Shown here piece by piece: positions 47,157 through 55,848 of a stretch of 64,000 nucleotides of DNA. Position 1 is the stretch's first letter; the number at the start of each line of letters is the position of its first letter. The translations under genes were made by a program, and so were the position numbers. The stretch is from Daejeonella lutea (GTDB lineage Bacteria > Bacteroidota > Bacteroidia > Sphingobacteriales > Sphingobacteriaceae), in assembly GCF_900168015.1 (NCBI RefSeq), contig NZ_FUYR01000004.1, positions 1 to 64,000 on the forward strand, read 5' to 3'. The notes beneath the pieces were generated by a model. The model worked only from the letters and a program-made list of their open reading frames with translations. It made no database searches and had not been told where the DNA came from.

Positions 47157-47320
47157 GGAGAATCGAGAATTGAGAGTTGAGACCCGATAGCTATAGGGTG
47201 TGCTGGAGGAATAGGCCTGGCCCATAGCCGCAATGGTACGACACACCTGAAACCTGATACCTGAAACCTGATACCTGAAACCTGATACCCTGAGCCCTGA
47301 TACCCGACACCGGATACTTG
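47157..47320. repeat. GAGAATT and ACCTGAT heptamer arrays
   Basis: An array of GAGAATC/GAGAATT 7-mers begins right after the MFS stop codon. After a 45-base spacer an ACCTGAA/ACCTGAT array runs from 47245, decaying into CCCTGAT and CCGACAC words. The two arrays use unrelated words. Confidence 0.78.
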
Positions 47321-47436: not shown

Positions 47437-47880
47437 ATGTTATCAAAAAAGACACGCTACGCTTTAAAAGCCCTGGTGGTATTAGGGAAGAATTTTGGTC
47501 AGGCACCCTTACAGATTTCAAGAATAGCTTCCGAAGAGAATATTCCTAAGAAATTTCTTGAACAGATCTTGCTCGACCTAAGAAATGCGGGCCTGCTTTT
47601 TAGTAAAAAAGGATCTGGAGGGGGTTACGGCCTTGTTAAAGACCCTGCGGAGATCTTCCTCGTGCAGGTGTTAAGACTTACCGGCGGCCCTGTTTCATTA
47701 CTTCCTTGCGTAAGTCTTAATTTCTACCAGAAATGTGATGAGTGTATCAACGAAGGTACGTGCGGAGTTCGCGATGTATTTCTCGATGTGAGGAATGCTA
47801 CTCTAAAAGTTCTGAGCGAAACAAGTATTGCTGATATCATCAAAAGGGAGAGTAAACTAGCAAATGACATGGGTTTGTAA
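47437..47880 (+). CDS. Rrf2-family transcriptional regulator
   Basis: A 147-residue regulator. Residues about 1-85 are the Rrf2 winged helix (SKKTRYALKALVVLGKN, IPKKFLEQILLDLRNAGLL, SGGGYGLVKDP). Residues about 88-112 carry four cysteines (LLPCVSLNFYQKCDECINEG then TCG), close to the cluster-binding region of IscR/NsrR-like proteins and also to CymR-type sulfur regulators. It lies directly upstream of the sulfate assimilation operon on the same strand, so it probably controls it, sensing either an Fe-S cluster or sulfur status. That role is inferred from position. Confidence 0.9.
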   Translation: MLSKKTRYALKALVVLGKNFGQAPLQISRIASEENIPKKFLEQILLDLRNAGLLFSKKGSGGGYGLVKDPAEIFLVQVLRLTGGPVSLLPCVSLNFYQKCDECINEGTCGVRDVFLDVRNATLKVLSETSIADIIKRESKLANDMGL

Positions 47881-47921
47881 AAAAAGTGCGGGATAGACTA
47901 CCATTTCTATATACTTTATAT

Positions 47922-47929
47922 TATATTTG
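47922..47929 (+). promoter_or_regulatory. Probable promoter -7 element of the sulfur operon
   Basis: TATATTTG matches TAnnTTTG. Its last base is only four bases before the ATG at 47934, so transcription should begin at or within a few bases of that ATG. The small leader ORF would then be read from a leaderless mRNA. The -33 region is weak (ATTTCT). Confidence 0.5.
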
Positions 47930-47933
47930 ACCA

Positions 47934-48008
47934 ATGAAATCAAAAAGCACCTATATGTTCACTGCTGTAATGACGAATTGTTGTTATATGGGATGCCTGG
48001 TTTCATAA
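47934..48008 (+). CDS. Cys/Met-rich leader peptide (24 residues)
   Basis: ATG at 47934 to TAA at 48006-48008 encodes a 24-residue peptide with three Cys (positions 16, 17 and 21, in TNCCYMGC) and four Met. Seven of 24 residues contain sulfur, far above chance. It lies between the Rrf2 gene and the sulfite reductase gene, begins just after a -7 element, and ends one base before a segment that can pair with the downstream terminator. I read it as the sensing peptide of a cysteine attenuator. Too short for homology; the call rests on position, composition and the RNA structures. Confidence 0.7.
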   Translation: MKSKSTYMFTAVMTNCCYMGCLVS

Positions 48009-48079
48009 TTGAAGAAGATTAGATATAATATTAAGTAATATACATAAACCTCTTCAACTCCGGTAGAAGAGGTTTTTTT
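48009..48079 (+). promoter_or_regulatory. Attenuator: antiterminator segment and intrinsic terminator
   Basis: The terminator stem is AAACCTCTTC (48046-48055) with GAAGAGGTTT (48066-48075), loop AACTCCGGTA, then a T run to 48079; the sulfite reductase ATG follows at 48094. TTGAAGA at 48009-48015, directly after the leader stop codon, is perfectly complementary to TCTTCAA at 48051-48057, the left arm of that stem. A ribosome at the stop codon would cover TTGAAGA and let the terminator form. A ribosome stalled on the Cys codons would leave it free and favour read-through. Confidence 0.72.
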
Positions 48080-48093
48080 GTACAAAATAAATA

Positions 48094-50193
48094 ATGGAGA
48101 GTTTCAGAACAGAATTAGAAAATCCAATCGTTCAGAAGGATATCATAGATCTCGAGAGAAAGATCAGAGAATTTCGTGAAGGCAAGATACACGATGAAAA
48201 ATTTCGTAGTCTTCGCTTAGCTCGCGGAATTTATGGACAAAGGCAGCCGGGTGTCCAGATGATCCGGATCAAACTGCCTTTCGGGAAAGTAACGTTTAAA
48301 CAAATACTGAAGATTGCAGATATTTCTGATGAGTATGCCAGCAGTAATCTCCATTTAACCACTCGTCAGGATATTCAGATCCATTACGTGAGTCTGGACC
48401 GCACACCCGAGCTATGGGCAAAACTTGAGGAAGATGACATAACCCTGCGCGAAGCTTGCGGAAATACAGTGAGGAATGTTACAGCATCGCCATCAGCGGG
48501 AATTGACCCGGCGGAGCCATTTGATGTTGCTCCATATGCTCATGCTACATTCAAGTATTTTCTAAGAAATCCTATTTGCCAGGAGATGGGCAGAAAGTTT
48601 AAGATAGCTTTCTCTTCCAGCGAGGCTGATAGCGCTTTCACTTATATCCACGATCTTGGATTCATACCCAAAGTTAAAAACATCGATGGCCAGGAAGTCC
48701 GTGGCTTTAAAGTGTTATTTGGCGGAGGTCTCGGAGCTCAGCCTGCCATTGCTCATGCAATCAACGACTTTCTGCATGAGGATGATCTTATACCTTATAT
48801 CGAAAGTACCCTGCGTGTGTTTGACAGACATGGCGAGCGGAACAATCGGAATAAGGCAAGGATGAAATTCCTGGTTGCTAAACTTGGCCTTGAAGAAGTT
48901 CTGCGTTTAATTGAAGAAGAAAAAACGGCAAATAAGTCGAGTAAGTTCGTTATTGATCGTGAGACAATACAGCTTCCGCAGATACCTGAACAGACCTCTT
49001 ATCCCGAGGTGATCATATCAGATCAGCAGCATTACGACAACTGGTTAAGGAGTAATGTCTTTGAGCAGAAACAGCAGGGATTTTACGGCGTTTACATCAA
49101 AGTCACTACCGGGGATATCCCTACTGCTAAAGCCCGGAAATTTATAGAGGCAATTAAGGACATTGTTGCTGACGAGATCAGGATCACCATTAATCAGGGA
49201 TTGCTTTTGAAATTTGTCAGGAAGGAGGCTTTGCCGCTGCTGTTTGAACGATTAAAAGAGCTAGATTTTGCCAAACCTGGATTTGACAGTGTTGCGGATG
49301 TTACAACATGCCCGGGAACTGACACCTGTAACCTCGGAATATCAAACAGCACGGAGCTTGCTCGGGTTCTTGAAGATCTAATTGAAGATGAATATGAAGA
49401 GCTTACCGACAACCAGGATATAAAGATCAAGATAAGTGGTTGTATGAACAGCTGCGGGCAGCATGGTCTCGCACAAATAGGATTCCACGGAAGTTCACTA
49501 AAGGCGGCCGGAAAAGTAGTTCCAGCTGCACAGGTTCTTTTGGGCGGAGGAACTCTGGGAGATGGACTGGGGCGTGCTGCAGAAAAAGTGATTAAGGTGC
49601 CATCTAAGCGGACAAAAGATGTTGTTCGCCTGGTACTTGACGATTATAGCCAGAATAAAGCTGGCGATGAGCTTTTCAACGACTTTTATGACAGGCTGGG
49701 TAAAGATCATTTCTATCAGCTTTTAAAGCCGCTTGCCGACCTCACTACACTTACTCCTGATGAATTCGTAGACTGGGGACATGAAGAAACCTTCTTTACA
49801 GCAATTGGTGTGGGAGAGTGTGCGGGAGTAGTGATCGACTTGGTTTCAACTCTGGTTCTTGAAGCTGAAGAAAAACTTCAATGGGCGATATCCTCGTTCG
49901 AAAACCAGGCATATGCTGATTCTATTTACCATGCCTATAGCGTATTAATAAGCGGTGCAAAAGCCCTTTTGCTGGATAAAGGAATCAATAGCAGTACACA
50001 AACCGGGATCATGCGTGATTTCGATGAACAATACAGAGATAGCCAGATTCTTGAAGGGATAGACAGCTTCACCGAACTGGCATTACAGATTAATAAAAAC
50101 GAGCCAACGCCAGAATTTGCACAGAATTATCTTGCATCAACAGTTGACTTCGTAAACAGAATTAAGATAGCAAAGGAGGCAGTTCAATTATGA
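48094..50193 (+). CDS. Sulfite (nitrite/sulfite-type) reductase with C-terminal HEPN-like domain
   Basis: A 699-residue siroheme/[4Fe-4S] enzyme reducing sulfite to sulfide. The N-terminal part has the ferredoxin-type half domains (LRLARGIYGQRQPG, NLHLTTRQDIQIHYV). The cluster cysteines are in TTCPGTDTCNLGISN (about 405-419) and SGCMNSCGQHG (about 448-458). After about residue 570 comes an extra helical domain (EAEEKLQWAISSFENQAYAD, then SIYHAYSVLISGAKALLLDKG) that resembles HEPN. Such a fusion is seen in Bacteroidetes, but its role is unclear. First structural gene of the sulfur operon; its stop overlaps the start of cobA. Confidence 0.93.
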   Translation: MESFRTELENPIVQKDIIDLERKIREFREGKIHDEKFRSLRLARGIYGQRQPGVQMIRIKLPFGKVTFKQILKIADISDEYASSNLHLTTRQDIQIHYVSLDRTPELWAKLEEDDITLREACGNTVRNVTASPSAGIDPAEPFDVAPYAHATFKYFLRNPICQEMGRKFKIAFSSSEADSAFTYIHDLGFIPKVKNIDGQEVRGFKVLFGGGLGAQPAIAHAINDFLHEDDLIPYIESTLRVFDRHGERNNRNKARMKFLVAKLGLEEVLRLIEEEKTANKSSKFVIDRETIQLPQIPEQTSYPEVIISDQQHYDNWLRSNVFEQKQQGFYGVYIKVTTGDIPTAKARKFIEAIKDIVADEIRITINQGLLLKFVRKEALPLLFERLKELDFAKPGFDSVADVTTCPGTDTCNLGISNSTELARVLEDLIEDEYEELTDNQDIKIKISGCMNSCGQHGLAQIGFHGSSLKAAGKVVPAAQVLLGGGTLGDGLGRAAEKVIKVPSKRTKDVVRLVLDDYSQNKAGDELFNDFYDRLGKDHFYQLLKPLADLTTLTPDEFVDWGHEETFFTAIGVGECAGVVIDLVSTLVLEAEEKLQWAISSFENQAYADSIYHAYSVLISGAKALLLDKGINSSTQTGIMRDFDEQYRDSQILEGIDSFTELALQINKNEPTPEFAQNYLASTVDFVNRIKIAKEAVQL

Positions 50194-50975
50194 TAATTTC
50201 CAAAACAAAACAAGAAGTAAAAGAACCAAGGATTACTTTGGTTGGAGCTGGCCCTGGCGATGCGGAGCTTATAAGTTTAAAAGGGGTTCGTATTCTTAAA
50301 TCAGCTGATGTGGTTTTGTATGATGCCCTTGTTAATAATGAACTGCTTGATTTCGCCCCTGAGCATGCCATGAAGGTATATGTGGGTAAACGGTCTGGTG
50401 ATCATTCCTATTCACAGGAAGCGGTCAATAAGCTGATGATCGATTATGCTTTAAACTACGGGCATGTGGTTCGTCTTAAAGGCGGCGATCCATTTGTTTT
50501 CGGCCGCGGATTCGAAGAGTTGGAGATGGCTGCATCTTACAGCATTCCTGCGGAGGTAGTGCCTGGTATATCATCAAGTATTTCTGTACCTGCCCTGCAG
50601 GGGATTCCTGTTACCCACCGCGGTACCAGCGAAAGCTTTTGGGTAATTACGGGTACAACTACCAGCGGAGAGGTGTCTAAAGACCTATATGCGGCAGCTA
50701 AAACCGATGCCACCGTGGTGGTATTGATGGGAGTCAGGAAATTGAAAGAGATAGCGGCAATATTCGAAGCAGAAGGAAAAGGACGATTACCCGTAGCTGT
50801 TATTCAGAATGGGTCAATGGCAAACGAAAAGGTTGTTGTTGGCACTGTTGCGACGATTGCTGAAGCTGCCGCTGATCAAAAGATAGGTGCACCGGCTCTA
50901 ATCGTATTTGGTGAAGTTGTTGGTTTACATGCGCTGTATCAGCCAATCCGTGCATTCTATGAGTGTTCTGAGTAA
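50190..50975 (+). CDS. cobA: Uroporphyrinogen-III C-methyltransferase
   Basis: A 261-residue SAM-dependent SUMT that makes precorrin-2, the siroheme precursor. Family motifs are VGAGPGDAELISLKG (about 18-32), YDALVNNELL, VRLKGGDPFVFGRG (about 92-105) and VPGISSSISVPALQGIPVTHRG (about 121). The start overlaps the sulfite reductase stop (ATGA). Together with the next gene it supplies siroheme for the reductase encoded just upstream. Its end overlaps the next start by 17 bases. Confidence 0.95.
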   Translation: MIISKTKQEVKEPRITLVGAGPGDAELISLKGVRILKSADVVLYDALVNNELLDFAPEHAMKVYVGKRSGDHSYSQEAVNKLMIDYALNYGHVVRLKGGDPFVFGRGFEELEMAASYSIPAEVVPGISSSISVPALQGIPVTHRGTSESFWVITGTTTSGEVSKDLYAAAKTDATVVVLMGVRKLKEIAAIFEAEGKGRLPVAVIQNGSMANEKVVVGTVATIAEAAADQKIGAPALIVFGEVVGLHALYQPIRAFYECSE

Positions 50976-51696
50976 AGAACATACCAATCTCAGCTCAGTT
51001 ACAATTGGAAATCAGTTGTTTCCTGTGTTCCTTAAGCTGAATGAGCTGAAGGTGCTGCTTGTTGGAGCGGGAAATATTGGTCTTGAAAAACTTAATGCCC
51101 TGCTTGCGAACAGTCCGGAGACACAGATAAGCATTGTTGCTGAAAGGTTTTTACCAGAGGTTATCGATCTTGCCGGTAAATTCCCTGGAATATATTCAAA
51201 CTACAGGAAATTTCAACCCAGCGATCTGGATGGTCAGGATCTGATAGTCATAGCTACCGGCGATAATGTTCTGAATGCAGAGATAAGGAGTTTGGCACGT
51301 GAACGGCACCTGCTTATTAACGTGGCGGACAAGCCTGAACTATGCGACTTCTATCTCGGGTCGATCGTAAAAAAAGGCGACCTGAAAATTGGTATTTCAA
51401 CGAACGGTAAATCGCCTACGATAGCTAAACGTTTAAAGGAGGTTTTTCAGGAGAATCTCCCCGATGAACTGGATATTAGTTTGCAGCAAATGAATCAGCT
51501 GAGAAATACGCTCAAAGGCGATTTTGCTCATAAAGTGACCGAGCTGAATAAAGTAACCGCGTCGCTGGTGGGTGCTGATACTAAAATATCAGCTCCTGAA
51601 AAAAGGAAATGGATATTATGGGGTACTGCATTGGGCATTATCCTATCACTGGTGCTCTATTCTGTTTTTAGCATCTTCGTTAATTTATATAAATAG
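50959..51696 (+). CDS. Precorrin-2 dehydrogenase / sirohydrochlorin ferrochelatase, membrane-anchored
   Basis: A 245-residue protein matching the N-terminal half of CysG (also Met8/SirC). Start at 50959 (MSVLSKEHTNLSSV) is preferred; the open frame reaches back into cobA. The NAD-binding site is VLLVGAGNIGLEKL (about 32-45), followed by LLINVADKPELCDFY and GISTNGKSPTIAKRL (about 150). An unusual feature is a C-terminal hydrophobic helix, KWILWGTALGIILSLVLYSV (about 217-236), which should anchor it to the inner membrane. It oxidises precorrin-2 and may insert Fe2+ to give siroheme. Confidence 0.9.
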   Translation: MSVLSKEHTNLSSVTIGNQLFPVFLKLNELKVLLVGAGNIGLEKLNALLANSPETQISIVAERFLPEVIDLAGKFPGIYSNYRKFQPSDLDGQDLIVIATGDNVLNAEIRSLARERHLLINVADKPELCDFYLGSIVKKGDLKIGISTNGKSPTIAKRLKEVFQENLPDELDISLQQMNQLRNTLKGDFAHKVTELNKVTASLVGADTKISAPEKRKWILWGTALGIILSLVLYSVFSIFVNLYK

Positions 51697-51720: not shown

Positions 51721-52887
51721 ATGAAGGAATCATCCAAGTTTATCCGTACCCAAACCCCCAGATCATCTCAAAGGGAACATTCTGTGCCATTGTACCTTAC
51801 ATCAAGTTTTATGTTTGATGATGCGGAGCATGGAAGGGCAATGTTTACGGAGGAGGTTGAGGGTAATATTTATTCACGTTATTCAAATCCAAATACTTCA
51901 GAATTTATACAGAAGGTGTGCGACGCTGAGGGGGCAGAGGCCGGGCTCGCATTTTCATCCGGAATGGCTGCTGTTTTTGCATCCTTTGCAGGATTGTTGA
52001 AAAGCGGAGATCATATTGTTGCCTTTCGTTCTATTTTTGGCTCCACACACCAGTTGTTTACCCAGTTATTACCGAGATGGGGAATCACTACGACCTATGT
52101 GGATGCATCTAAGCCCGAAGATTTTGAAAAGGCTTTGCGTCCGGAAACTAAGATGGTGTTTTTAGAAACTCCTTCGAATCCTGGGCTGGAACTGGTTGAT
52201 CTGGAATGGCTTGGTGCATTGAAAAAGAAACATAATTTCATTCTTAATGTAGATAATTGTTTCGCCACGCCTTATCTGCAAAAGCCTGTTCAGTACGGTG
52301 CTGATCTTGTAAGCCATTCATCAACAAAATACATGGACGGTCAGGGACGGGTTTTAGGAGGCATTGTAGTTGGCCGTAAAGACCTGATCAAGGAAATGAT
52401 GTTCTTTATCAGACATACCGGGCCAGCAATGTCAGCATTCAATGCCTGGGTGTTTTCGAAAAGCCTGGAAACCCTGCCTGTGCGTATGGACCGCCATTGC
52501 AGTAATGCACTGAAGGTAGCCCAAGCTTTAGAAAAGCATAGCGACGTAGAAGTCGTCCGATATCCTTTTCTGCAATCGCACCCGCAGCATGATCTTGCAA
52601 AACGTCAGATGAAGCAGGGCGGCGGGATAGTGACTTTTATAATTAAGGGTGGAATGCAGCGTGCGATGAGTTTCCTCGATGCACTGGAAATGATCAGCTT
52701 ATCGTCTAATCTTGGTGATACACGAACTATTGCAACCCACCCGGTATCTACCACCCATTCCAAGCTTACAGACGAGGAACGAGCCCAGATTGGCATTTTC
52801 CCCGGCACAATTCGTATTTCGGTAGGACTTGAGGATGCAGAGGATATTATTGCGGATCTGGCCCGGGCTTTAGACAATTCAAAATAA
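51721..52887 (+). CDS. PLP-dependent sulfhydrylase (O-succinyl/acetylhomoserine type)
   Basis: A 388-residue fold-type I PLP enzyme of the Cys/Met metabolism family. The PLP lysine is in SHSSTKYMDGQGRVLGG (about 200-216), with ETPSNPG (about 149) and FSSGMAAVFA (about 80). In this operon, after sulfide production, it most likely fixes sulfide onto an activated homoserine (MetZ/MetY-like). Cystathionine gamma-synthase or lyase activity cannot be excluded. It starts 24 bases after the previous stop. Confidence 0.9.
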   Translation: MKESSKFIRTQTPRSSQREHSVPLYLTSSFMFDDAEHGRAMFTEEVEGNIYSRYSNPNTSEFIQKVCDAEGAEAGLAFSSGMAAVFASFAGLLKSGDHIVAFRSIFGSTHQLFTQLLPRWGITTTYVDASKPEDFEKALRPETKMVFLETPSNPGLELVDLEWLGALKKKHNFILNVDNCFATPYLQKPVQYGADLVSHSSTKYMDGQGRVLGGIVVGRKDLIKEMMFFIRHTGPAMSAFNAWVFSKSLETLPVRMDRHCSNALKVAQALEKHSDVEVVRYPFLQSHPQHDLAKRQMKQGGGIVTFIIKGGMQRAMSFLDALEMISLSSNLGDTRTIATHPVSTTHSKLTDEERAQIGIFPGTIRISVGLEDAEDIIADLARALDNSK

Positions 52888-52895
52888 ATTACATA

Positions 52896-53594
52896 ATGAG
52901 TACTCAGAATTTACTTCAGGAGATAAAGGGTTTAGGGATCGTAGAATCACTGAAGTACATCGCTGATAAATATCCTGGGCAAGTAGTATTCTCTACCAGT
53001 TTTGGATGGGAAGACCAGGTGATATCACATATCATATTTAAAAATGATTTGCCTATCAAGGTGTTCACCCTGGAAACAGGCAGATTGTTTCCGGAAACGT
53101 ACTACGTTTGGAACCGGACTCTTGAGATGTACGGAAAGCAAATCCACGCATATTATCCAAATACACTTGCTGTCGAAAACATGATCAGCACGAAAGGACC
53201 AAGCAGTTTTTACGAATCAGTGGAGAACCGTAAAGAATGCTGCGGGATTCGAAAAGTGGAGCCTTTAAAGCGGGCATTAGCAGGAAATTCGGTATGGATA
53301 ACAGGTATCCGTGCTGACCAGTCAATGAACCGTGAGCACATGGATAACGTGGAGTGGGACGAAGGCAATCAAATCTTAAAATATCACCCAATTTTTGATT
53401 GGACATTGGATCAGGTAAAGCAATTTATCAGGGAAAATAATATCCCTTATAATCCGCTGCATGACAAAGGTTTTCCAAGTATCGGCTGCGCCCCATGTAC
53501 TCGCGCTGTACGGGAAGGCGAAGATTTTCGTGCCGGAAGATGGTGGTGGGAAGATCAGAGTAAAAAGGAGTGTGGCTTACACACTACTACATAA
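52896..53594 (+). CDS. cysH: Adenylylsulfate (APS) reductase
   Basis: A 232-residue CysH-family reductase giving sulfite. The substrate loop is VVFSTSFGWEDQVI (about 29-42). Cys pairs in KECCGIRKV (about 113) and GCAPCTRAV (about 196-204) mark the [4Fe-4S] type that prefers APS over PAPS, and the catalytic Cys is in KKECGLH (about 225). This fits CysN lacking an APS kinase part. It follows the sulfhydrylase by eight bases. Confidence 0.94.
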   Translation: MSTQNLLQEIKGLGIVESLKYIADKYPGQVVFSTSFGWEDQVISHIIFKNDLPIKVFTLETGRLFPETYYVWNRTLEMYGKQIHAYYPNTLAVENMISTKGPSSFYESVENRKECCGIRKVEPLKRALAGNSVWITGIRADQSMNREHMDNVEWDEGNQILKYHPIFDWTLDQVKQFIRENNIPYNPLHDKGFPSIGCAPCTRAVREGEDFRAGRWWWEDQSKKECGLHTTT

Positions 53595-53692: not shown

Positions 53693-54598
53693 ATGACTAC
53701 ACAGGACACAACGTATTTAGACCAGCTGGAAGCCGAAGCAATTCACATATTGCGCGAGGTTGCCGGCCAGTTTGAAAAACCAGCTTTGCTGTTTTCCGGA
53801 GGGAAGGATTCGATAACACTTGTCAGGCTTGCAGAAAAGGCATTCAGGCCGGGGAAATTCCCGTTTCCTTTAGTGCACATCGATACCGGGCATAATTTTC
53901 CAGAGACGATAAGCTATAGGGATAAAATGATTGAGAGGCTGGGCGAGAAGCTAATTGTAGGGTATGTGCAGGATTCAATCGACCAGGGTAAAGTGATTGA
54001 GCAGACTGGTAAGAATGCCAGCAGAAATGCATTGCAGACGGTCACGTTGCTCGACACAATAGCTGCCAATAAGTTTGATGCATGTATAGGAGGTGCCCGC
54101 AGGGATGAGGAAAAAGCCCGTGCCAAAGAACGAATCTTTTCTGTTCGCGATGAGTTTGGGCAGTGGGATCCGAAACGCCAGCGGCCTGAGTTATGGAACG
54201 TGTACAATGGCAAGATCCACAAAGGCGAAAACGTTCGTGTATTCCCAATAAGCAACTGGACTGAGCTTGATGTCTGGAACTATATACGCAGGGAAAAAAT
54301 TGAGCTTCCAACCATCTATTTTGCCCACCAGCGTGATGTGATCACCAGGAATGGTCAATTGATGGCAGCGGCAGATTTCCTTAATATCGATGAACATGAT
54401 CGTATTGAGCACAAGAATGTTCGTTTCCGCACTGTCGGGGACATGACCTGTACTGCGGCTGTGGAGTCAGACGCATTTTTAATAGATGATATAATTGAAG
54501 AAATAAGGTCCTCAAAGATCAGCGAAAGAGGAGCCCGTATGGATGATAAAGTTTCTGAAGCTGCAATGGAAGACCGCAAAAAGGGAGGATATTTTTAA
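53693..54598 (+). CDS. cysD: Sulfate adenylyltransferase subunit 2
   Basis: A 301-residue ATP-PP-loop enzyme, the catalytic subunit of ATP sulfurylase. The PP loop is LLFSGGKDSITL (about 32-43), followed by HIDTGHNFPETI (about 63) and GGARRDEEKARAKERIFS (about 130). It works with CysN, whose ATG overlaps its stop codon, to make APS from sulfate and ATP. Length and motifs are normal. Confidence 0.96.
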   Translation: MTTQDTTYLDQLEAEAIHILREVAGQFEKPALLFSGGKDSITLVRLAEKAFRPGKFPFPLVHIDTGHNFPETISYRDKMIERLGEKLIVGYVQDSIDQGKVIEQTGKNASRNALQTVTLLDTIAANKFDACIGGARRDEEKARAKERIFSVRDEFGQWDPKRQRPELWNVYNGKIHKGENVRVFPISNWTELDVWNYIRREKIELPTIYFAHQRDVITRNGQLMAAADFLNIDEHDRIEHKNVRFRTVGDMTCTAAVESDAFLIDDIIEEIRSSKISERGARMDDKVSEAAMEDRKKGGYF

Positions 54599-55848
54599 TG
54601 GATTTACTTAAATTTTTTACAGCAGGAAGTGTCGATGATGGTAAAAGTACCCTAATCGGCAGACTTCTTTATGATAGTGAATCTATACTGGCAGATCAGC
54701 TGGAAGCACTTCAGCAATCCAACCGCAAAAATGACGATGGGACAATTGACCTTGCAATTTTAACGGACGGACTAAAAGCGGAGCGCGAGCAGGGAATTAC
54801 TATTGATGTCGCATATAAATATTTCCAGACCGATAAACGCAAATTTATCATTGCTGATACTCCGGGACATATTCAGTATACCCGGAATATGGTGACAGGT
54901 GCATCCAACTCTAATCTTGCCATCATTTTGGTAGATGCGAGGAATGGGGTTGTTGAACAAACAATCAGGCATTCATTTATAGTGTCGCTGCTGGAGCTGA
55001 AGCATGTTGTTGTTTGTATCAACAAAATGGACATGGTCGATTATAGTGAGCAGACCTTTAATGACATTCATAAAGCATATTCTGAGATCGCCACCAAGCT
55101 ACATTTAAATGAAGTTACCTATATCCCGGTTAGTGCGCTGAAAGGGGATAATGTTGTTAATGTTTCCGGTAATATGCCGTGGTATACGGGTAAGAGTTTG
55201 CTGGATCATCTCGAAACTATCGAAGTAAATGAAGATGAAAAATCCCCGCAGGCGCGTATGCCGGTGCAATGGGTCATCAGACCGCAGACGGATGAGCTTC
55301 ACGACTATCGTGGATATGCTGGCCGAGTGTCTAGTGGAAGTTTCCATGTGAATGACAAGGTTACTGTTTTGCCATCAGGGGTACGATCGGAGATCAGCAG
55401 GATTGAAACGTTTGGGCAGGACCAGGCTGAGATTCATAGCGGTATGTCAGTAACGCTTCATCTTAAAGATAATATCGATATAAGCAGGGGCGATATCCTC
55501 GTGAATTCTTCACATGAGCCGATAGTATCCCAGCTAATAGAAGCTGATTTATGCTGGATGGACACTCGACCGCTGGACGATTCGATGATGTACCTGATTC
55601 AGCATAACAGCAAACAAACGAAATGTAAGATCCGTGAAATTCTCCACAAAGTAAATATTAACACGCTAGATAAAATCCCAGCTGATAGCTTCCAGCTAAA
55701 CGATATCGGCCGGATTGTCATAAAAACCGCTGATCCTCTTGCATTTGACCTATATCATGAGAATAAGCAAAATGGGGGGGCCATACTCATTGACAGCCGC
55801 ACTAATTTGACTGTGGGAGCTTTGATGTTCAGGGCTTCAGTTGAATAA
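54598..55848 (+). CDS. cysN: Sulfate adenylyltransferase subunit 1 (GTPase)
   Basis: A 416-residue EF-Tu-like GTPase that drives APS formation. G motifs are GSVDDGKSTLIG (about 10-21), EQGITIDVAYKYF, DTPGH (about 87), NKMDMVDY (about 143) and the G5-like PVSALKGDNV. It ends after domain III and has no APS-kinase (CysC) extension, which agrees with the APS-type reductase encoded upstream. Its start overlaps the cysD stop codon (TAATG). Confidence 0.96.
   Translation: MDLLKFFTAGSVDDGKSTLIGRLLYDSESILADQLEALQQSNRKNDDGTIDLAILTDGLKAEREQGITIDVAYKYFQTDKRKFIIADTPGHIQYTRNMVTGASNSNLAIILVDARNGVVEQTIRHSFIVSLLELKHVVVCINKMDMVDYSEQTFNDIHKAYSEIATKLHLNEVTYIPVSALKGDNVVNVSGNMPWYTGKSLLDHLETIEVNEDEKSPQARMPVQWVIRPQTDELHDYRGYAGRVSSGSFHVNDKVTVLPSGVRSEISRIETFGQDQAEIHSGMSVTLHLKDNIDISRGDILVNSSHEPIVSQLIEADLCWMDTRPLDDSMMYLIQHNSKQTKCKIREILHKVNINTLDKIPADSFQLNDIGRIVIKTADPLAFDLYHENKQNGGAILIDSRTNLTVGALMFRASVE

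Follow-up and report, generated by a model that had tools for sequence, protein, structure and literature searches.

The stretch of DNA analysed here, called the window below, covers positions 1 to 64,000 (64,000 nt) of contig NZ_FUYR01000004.1 of Daejeonella lutea, and the region of interest is the 213-nt gap between the gene of an Rrf2-family regulator and the sulfite reductase gene that follows it. The genes and features of the locus are given below in window coordinates.

47437–47880, plus strand: Rrf2-family regulator gene, 147 aa (TIGR00738, 108.5 bits, above the cut-off)
47907–47919, plus strand: CTATATACTTTAT, A/T-rich stretch adjoining the promoter, similar in relatives
47922–47929, plus strand: TATATTTG, fitting the TAnnTTTG consensus of the Bacteroidota −7 promoter element
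47934–48008, plus strand: leader ORF, 24 codons and a stop (MKSKSTYMFTAVMTNCCYMGCLVS), recurring in relatives as a Cys leader
47979–47984, plus strand: Cys16-Cys17, putative control codons TGT TGT
47994–47996, plus strand: Cys21 codon, 12 nt 5' of the antiterminator strand
48009–48015, plus strand: region 2, TTGAAGA, putative antiterminator strand (5' side), adjoining the stop codon
48046–48079, plus strand: intrinsic terminator, regions 3 and 4 plus a T-run (folding, −13.1 kcal/mol)
48051–48057, plus strand: region 3, TCTTCAA, able to pair with region 2 or inside the terminator
48094–50193, plus strand: sulfite/nitrite reductase-type hemoprotein with a C-terminal HEPN-like domain, first gene after the putative attenuator
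50190–50975, plus strand: uroporphyrinogen-III C-methyltransferase, siroheme synthesis (NF004790 and TIGR01469, above the cut-off)
50974–51696 (5' boundary provisional), plus strand: siroheme synthase N-terminal type, precorrin-2 dehydrogenase (TIGR01470, above the cut-off)
51721–52887, plus strand: O-succinylhomoserine sulfhydrylase-like enzyme, methionine branch (NF006003, 505.4 with 522 needed; PF01053)
52896–53594, plus strand: APS/PAPS reductase CysH (NF002537, above the cut-off)
53693–54598, plus strand: sulfate adenylyltransferase subunit CysD (TIGR02039, above the cut-off)
54598–55848, plus strand: sulfate adenylyltransferase subunit CysN (TIGR02034, above the cut-off)

According to these profile matches, the genes behind the putative attenuator serve cysteine and methionine synthesis, and because of their spacing and common strand, those from the sulfite reductase gene through cysN presumably form a single operon. 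The regulator encoded upstream is CymR-like, with a score against the CymR model NF047409 (80.9 bits, 195 needed) that lies below the cut-off. The HEPN domain (PF05168, 26.0 bits with a cut-off of 22) occupies residues 587–646 of the sulfite reductase (window 49852–50031) and is an odd partner for such an enzyme. Additionally, a short repeated stretch, cctgaaacctgatac, was seen by eye at 47220–47310, between an upstream transporter-like gene and the Rrf2 gene.

In the window, TATATTTG is followed after 4 nt by the ATG of the leader ORF. The TAnnTTTG motif is described as the −7 element of Bacteroidetes promoters, and 5' untranslated regions shorter than 10 nt are reported for only about 3.7% of cases in B. 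thetaiotaomicron (PMC7366714). Because the promoter element lies only 4 nt from the ATG, transcription probably starts within a few nucleotides of the start codon, and the leader would be nearly leaderless. The 24-codon ORF with three Cys and four Met codons that had been predicted is present at 47934–48008, with Cys at codons 16, 17 and 21 and Met at codons 1, 8, 13 and 19. Among the 580 ATG-initiated ORFs of 15–40 codons in the window, seven have at least three Cys codons and a CysCys pair; these represent five different stops, and two of the seven are the leader itself read from two starts.

Folding also confirmed the predicted terminator at 48046–48079, ahead of the sulfite reductase start at 48094: the 64 nt from 48016 fold at z −3.65, and the 95 nt from 47985 at z −2.1. 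A simple terminator scan, which allows loops of up to 8 nt, missed this hairpin because its loop, counted from the uninterrupted stem, is 10 nt long. The perfect complementarity between TTGAAGA and TCTTCAA was found as predicted, with A+T-rich DNA between TTGAAGA and the hairpin. Shuffling the spacer of the window produces a perfect 7-base complement in 2.4% of cases, and the helix of seven base pairs has a single-locus shuffle p of 0.063.

These elements suggest the following mechanism. RNA polymerase would start at or next to the leader ATG, judging from the promoter element, and a ribosome would trail it through the 24-codon leader. With ample Cys-tRNA, the ribosome would reach the stop codon and cover TTGAAGA (48009–48015), so that the hairpin at 48046–48079 would form and transcription would terminate. 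With scarce Cys-tRNA, the ribosome would stall at codon 16, 17 or 21 and leave TTGAAGA free to pair with TCTTCAA (48051–48057) as soon as the latter is made, allowing read-through into the sulfite reductase gene and the rest of the operon. The enzymes would thus probably be made only when cysteine is short. The start site, operon, translation, stalling, masking and response to cysteine are all predicted here from sequence.

Since one locus is only suggestive, the DNA upstream of sulfite reductase genes was gathered from relatives, and the comparison set out below puts the features well beyond chance. A search of the window's family, in which 131 of 151 genomes matched, provided 30 loci, and a search of genome contigs provided the best 80 of 584 loci; 40 further family loci (one of only 48 bases) were added by position, a class-level search gave 31 loci from other families, and nine more family loci were included. 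After removal of near-duplicates, 158 upstream regions were retained, 127 from the window's family and 31 from other families, of which 157 were long enough for folding analysis. The genomes sampled comprise 70 of the 131 matching family genomes and nine further ones, and the class-level matches G330 and G396 were left out. Later, 47 more other-family loci and 13 longer stretches of loci already sampled were added. Note that the loci are related, and the shuffle p-values given below therefore overstate independence.

To choose ORFs blind to their Cys content, we took the first ATG within 30 nt after the promoter element and accepted ORFs of 8–45 codons, which yielded 61 ORFs from the 88 loci with TAnnTTTG at least 100 nt before the gene. 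The remaining 27 promoter-bearing loci were dropped for having no ATG within 30 nt or an ORF whose length or closeness to the gene was outside the bounds, and four of them carry GTG at the 4-nt position. With either ATG or GTG counted as a start, the distance from TAnnTTTG is exactly 4 nt in 35 of the 88 loci, the window included. In the 61 ORFs, Cys ranks first among all residues (149 of 1237 codons, 12.0%; TGT 79 times, TGC 70 times), and a CysCys pair occurs in 43, with 4.2 expected and a maximum of 10 in 200 dinucleotide shuffles. The presence of at least one Cys codon (57 of 61 ORFs, against 44.7 in shuffles with a maximum of 56) is less telling. Cys accounts for 12.0% of codons in frame, 8.0% in frame +1 and 1.8% in frame +2, and the fact that it is not rare in frame +1 counts against the attenuator reading. 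The Cys richness holds under this Cys-blind choice in relatives, and a chance origin of the ORF was rejected.

Met is likewise over-represented in the leaders (108 against 46) and adjoins the Cys run. Outside the Cys run it makes up 75 of 776 codons, whereas shuffles give 25.8 (maximum 36), and chance was rejected as an explanation of the Met codons as well. In the 43 CysCys leaders, Met is densest within three codons of the Cys run, both before it (32 of 129) and after it (18 of 125), and thinner farther away, at 21 of 395 codons upstream and 4 of 129 downstream. The leader may accordingly report on methionine too; the clustering may reflect Met sensing, internal starts or a constraint on the RNA. 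Beyond the Cys/Met stretch, little similarity between the peptides is visible by eye, as is the case for attenuator leaders.

Strict terminator-like hairpins were detected in 74 of the 158 upstream regions and in none or one whenever these were shuffled (five rounds). Folding gave 81 of 157 regions a hairpin with an energy of −9 kcal/mol or lower, and 56 of these have an ORF with CysCys ending nearby (41 loci in the window's family and 15 in other families). For these 56 loci, the mean score of the alternative helix was 15.8, compared with 12.8 in shuffles (sd 0.34) and 13.4 with partners swapped between loci (sd 0.33; maximum of 200 swaps, 14.3), with individual loci reaching p < 0.05 in only 13 of the 56. 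The 5' strand of the helix typically starts about 15–17 nt after the last CysCys, with a median distance of 17 nt (interquartile range 14–19), whereas its position relative to the stop codon spreads more (interquartile range −11 to +2). In 51 of 56 loci, the distance of the strand from the last CysCys is 9–24 nt, against a shuffle mean of 21 and maximum of 31, this range having been picked post hoc on the same 56 loci; the window, with a distance of 24 nt, is at its edge.

The range was fixed beforehand for a second set, consisting of 22 of the 37 other-family modules, the other 15 being in the first set already; some of the 22 share genomes (as the other module) or families with the first set. 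In it, 20 of the 22 modules lie within 9–24 nt, with a null mean of 8.0 and maximum of 15. The helix score was 19.5, against 12.7 in shuffles (sd 0.49) and 14.7 with swapped partners (sd 0.75, maximum 17.3), and 14 of the 22 modules reached p < 0.05. A stalled ribosome shields roughly the first dozen nucleotides downstream, and a spacing of 9–24 nt is therefore what the mechanism demands; stall geometry is the best explanation for the kept distance between Cys codons and helix. At the same time, the helix strand begins at or after the end of the ORF in 24 of the 56 loci, among them the window, where it follows directly after the stop, and before the end of the ORF in 32, in some by up to about 40 nt, a position that simple masking by a ribosome at the stop codon does not fit.

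The pairings were followed column by column in alignment A3, which contains 25 Mucilaginibacter-type loci (L030 and the poorly aligning L053 were left out). The helix between regions 2 and 3 is paired in 74% of the cells (93% in its inner half and 55% in its outer half) and in 39% at most when slid by one to three columns, and the terminator is paired in 100%. The covariation score exceeded all 500 shuffles for both helices. Pairs of the 2:3 helix with changes on both sides numbered four, against 3.3 in shuffles (204 of 500), which is no excess. A region-3 column with C or U covaries with G or A both in region 2 (19 of 20 scorable rows) and in region 4 (21 of 25 rows). The covarying columns change only three to four times on the sulfite reductase tree, giving two independent pairs, too few for significance; both pairs are concordant with region 2, and an average of 1.4 of the 2 with region 4. 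Between clades, the helices are wholly different (TTGAAGA:TCTTCAA, GTGGTTG:CAGCCAC, TGACTG:CAGTCG, GCGGAAG:CTTCCGC and TGGAAAGCCT:AGGCTTTCCA), a difference captured by the swap test. Of the conservation that the original prediction expected among relatives, the Cys codons and both pairings were thus recovered, while independent covariation events proved few and many loci lack the device.

For the window, nascent RNA running from behind CysCys to the terminator loop has the antiterminator as its minimum-energy fold, which is unexceptional taken alone (z −1.47, matched in stability by 17 of 200 shuffles). With the 3' arm included, the fold switches to the terminator, the more stable structure at equilibrium; therefore, the switch would be decided kinetically, during transcription, as in classical cases.

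Modules consisting of a Cys leader and a terminator are found well beyond the window's family. Among the 78 loci from other families, 25 have one module or more, 12 of them two, with none or one found in shuffles (five times), and the families with a module amount to 14 of the 24 other families examined. The 53 remaining other-family loci have no module by the criterion used, including all those from f54 (12 of 12), f12 (8 of 8), f15 (5 of 5) and f68 (4 of 4). This strict criterion misses likely cases, such as L249, which carries MKFTNNQNLNSYMMCMMMCCCMRSDAGGYLAE and yet was scored as having none. Within the window's family, the device is missing from all 23 informative loci whose sulfite reductases are more distant (58–61% identity), namely L112–L135 without L123. 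In 21 of these 23, CTATAG occurs within 40 nt before the start codon and resembles the stretch beside the window's promoter.

The 12 loci with two Cys leader-terminator modules in series belong to seven families (L156/L240, L157/L241, L239, L159, L162, L194, L196, L209 and L243–L246); the window itself has a single module. TAnnTTTG stands 9–18 nt before the first leader in 11 of the 12, the twelfth having only 8 nt of DNA there, and does not occur between the first terminator and the second leader in any of them. A single transcript therefore probably meets both attenuators. The helix strand starts 1–5 nt after the stop codon in 8 of the 12 first modules and 4–42 nt before the ORF end in the 12 second modules, and stop-codon masking does not always account for the latter. 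In these second modules, the antiterminator may be opened by the ribosome as it moves along, during synthesis of the terminator. In L209, over 300 nt separate both modules from the start of the sulfite reductase gene. We lean towards the view that, across the class, many sulfite reductase operons are under attenuators reading Cys and Met codons together, and that at least seven families place a pair of them, answering to one signal, in series behind a single promoter, so that the two read-through probabilities would be multiplied and the switch made steep.

In relatives, the leader ORF recurs with its bias towards Cys, and so do the terminator, the alternative helix and the distance of that helix from the Cys codons. 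We consider it very probable that a ribosome-mediated transcription attenuator precedes the sulfate-assimilation operon in the window and senses tRNA-Cys in its charged form, perhaps charged tRNA-Met too; the comparison supports the attenuator mechanism originally predicted, as the Cys codons, the terminator and the alternative helix are found again in other genomes. The hairpin cannot be assigned to the end of the Rrf2 gene only, a possibility that was rejected because it lies downstream of the leader ORF and has a 5' arm that matches sequence around the leader stop. Control of translation, or of transcript decay, by a polycysteine ORF as in mycobacteria, with the hairpin incidental or a processing site, has a precedent in the leaderless polycysteine ORFs reported to act by translational attenuation (PMC9031893, PMC13236596), and the start arrangement here, with ATG or GTG 4 nt after the promoter element in those 35 of 88 loci, is similar. 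This explanation seems improbable to us, since an intrinsic terminator recurs between leader and gene and the alternative helix pairs with the 5' arm of the terminator better than shuffled or swapped partners do.

Still less credence is given to the leader being a functional small Cys-rich peptide, for example a metal-binding one, whose terminator merely ends its own short transcript. That a small Cys-rich ORF is found again in relatives, flanked by a promoter and a terminator of its own, would agree with such a function, but the peptides have little in common outside the Cys/Met stretch (by eye), and the kept spacing between Cys codons and helix would be unneeded for it; that the ORF always precedes a sulfite reductase gene is no evidence, because the loci were chosen so. 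The least likely explanation is that the ORF is untranslated and that a riboswitch or a protein-binding leader senses a sulfur metabolite or the Rrf2 protein. The Rrf2-family gene directly upstream and the similar promoter-adjoining stretch in relatives speak for it, whereas the alignments show in-frame Cys codons, not an aptamer-like core, as the recurring element. A search of 47881–48093 against Rfam gave no match at the gathering threshold to a riboswitch, a T-box or any other family, and the best leader-strand match in a permissive search reached 24.7 bits with 50 needed. The TATATTTG promoter is kept without leader and terminator in several members of the window's family, L016, L017, L076, L091, L096 and others (by eye), and Rrf2 control, if any, is therefore more likely exerted at initiation. 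The CTATATACTTTAT-type stretch, which may be an operator of the adjacent Rrf2 regulator, is also partly kept in relatives even where leader and terminator are missing.

Elsewhere in the same genome, two of the three matches to cysteine synthase-type genes were examined by eye and have no leader-terminator module. At one of them, L254 (G000:C2), the short ORF MMLSNCCVTINPHSC was rejected as a chance occurrence, as it ends upstream of TAATTTTG and no terminator follows; TAATTTTG itself stands 4 nt before the apparent ATG of the gene, whose transcript may be nearly leaderless too. Upstream of hisG at L252 (G000:C4), the ORF MNKVFTHHVHFHHRFAAMVK, followed by its stop codon and lying behind TATATTTG, is a candidate histidine leader, with no clean intrinsic terminator seen there. 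This candidate suggests that the organism uses leader peptides elsewhere too.

Leader-peptide attenuators of the trp/his type are known from Proteobacteria. The device proposed here resembles them in its short ORF rich in codons for the end product, its intrinsic terminator, its mutually exclusive antiterminator and the predicted masking of region 2 by a ribosome at the stop codon. It differs in that cysteine (perhaps together with methionine) would be sensed, in its Bacteroidota promoter, in an ORF that is probably nearly leaderless, in the folds of the window, which contain no 5'-side hairpin overlapping region 2, and in the occurrence of two modules in series in some relatives. Another case of transcription attenuation by a leader peptide is that of M. 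tuberculosis ilvB1 (PMC13236596). Polycysteine leader ORFs of Actinobacteria were predicted earlier, with no conserved terminator hairpins reported for the cys leader regions of Mycobacterium in that account (PMC1262725), and were studied by Canestrari et al. 2020 (as cited in PMC9031893 and PMC13236596). They share with the leader described here a short ORF ahead of cys genes in which Cys codons form a run close to the stop. A leaderless start is reported for the mycobacterial leaders and is probable in our case. In contrast to the mycobacterial leaders, which are reported to act on translation, a terminator and an antiterminator recur here.

The original prediction knew of no described example in the phylum, and this held in part. 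For Flavobacterium psychrophilum, attenuation by leader peptides was inferred from structured 5' regions of amino-acid operons (PMC9723704), which involves the same phylum and the same general mechanism; the genes named in the account of that work are pheA and hisG, not cysteine or sulfur genes. Among the matches listed in a search of open-licence papers, we noticed no Cys-specific attenuator in Bacteroidota, and a search of such papers for Rrf2, sulfite reductase and cysteine in Bacteroidetes found nothing. Two leader ORF attenuators within one leader mRNA are described for Salmonella mgtCBR, where they are reported to answer different signals, ATP and proline (PMC3641672), whereas both modules in the relatives of the window are Cys-rich. 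The kind of device is thus a known one, and its novelty would consist in a cysteine-sensing attenuator of the terminator type in this phylum, a leader that is probably leaderless and a serial form in relatives.

If the proposed mechanism is true, the class would gain a defined cysteine sensor for sulfate assimilation and, with it, a ready reporter. The device would also tie a probably leaderless start to attenuation outside the Actinobacteria, and would do so with a terminator that the mycobacterial leaders reportedly do without. The serial arrangement poses the question of what value a second attenuator adds for the same signal.
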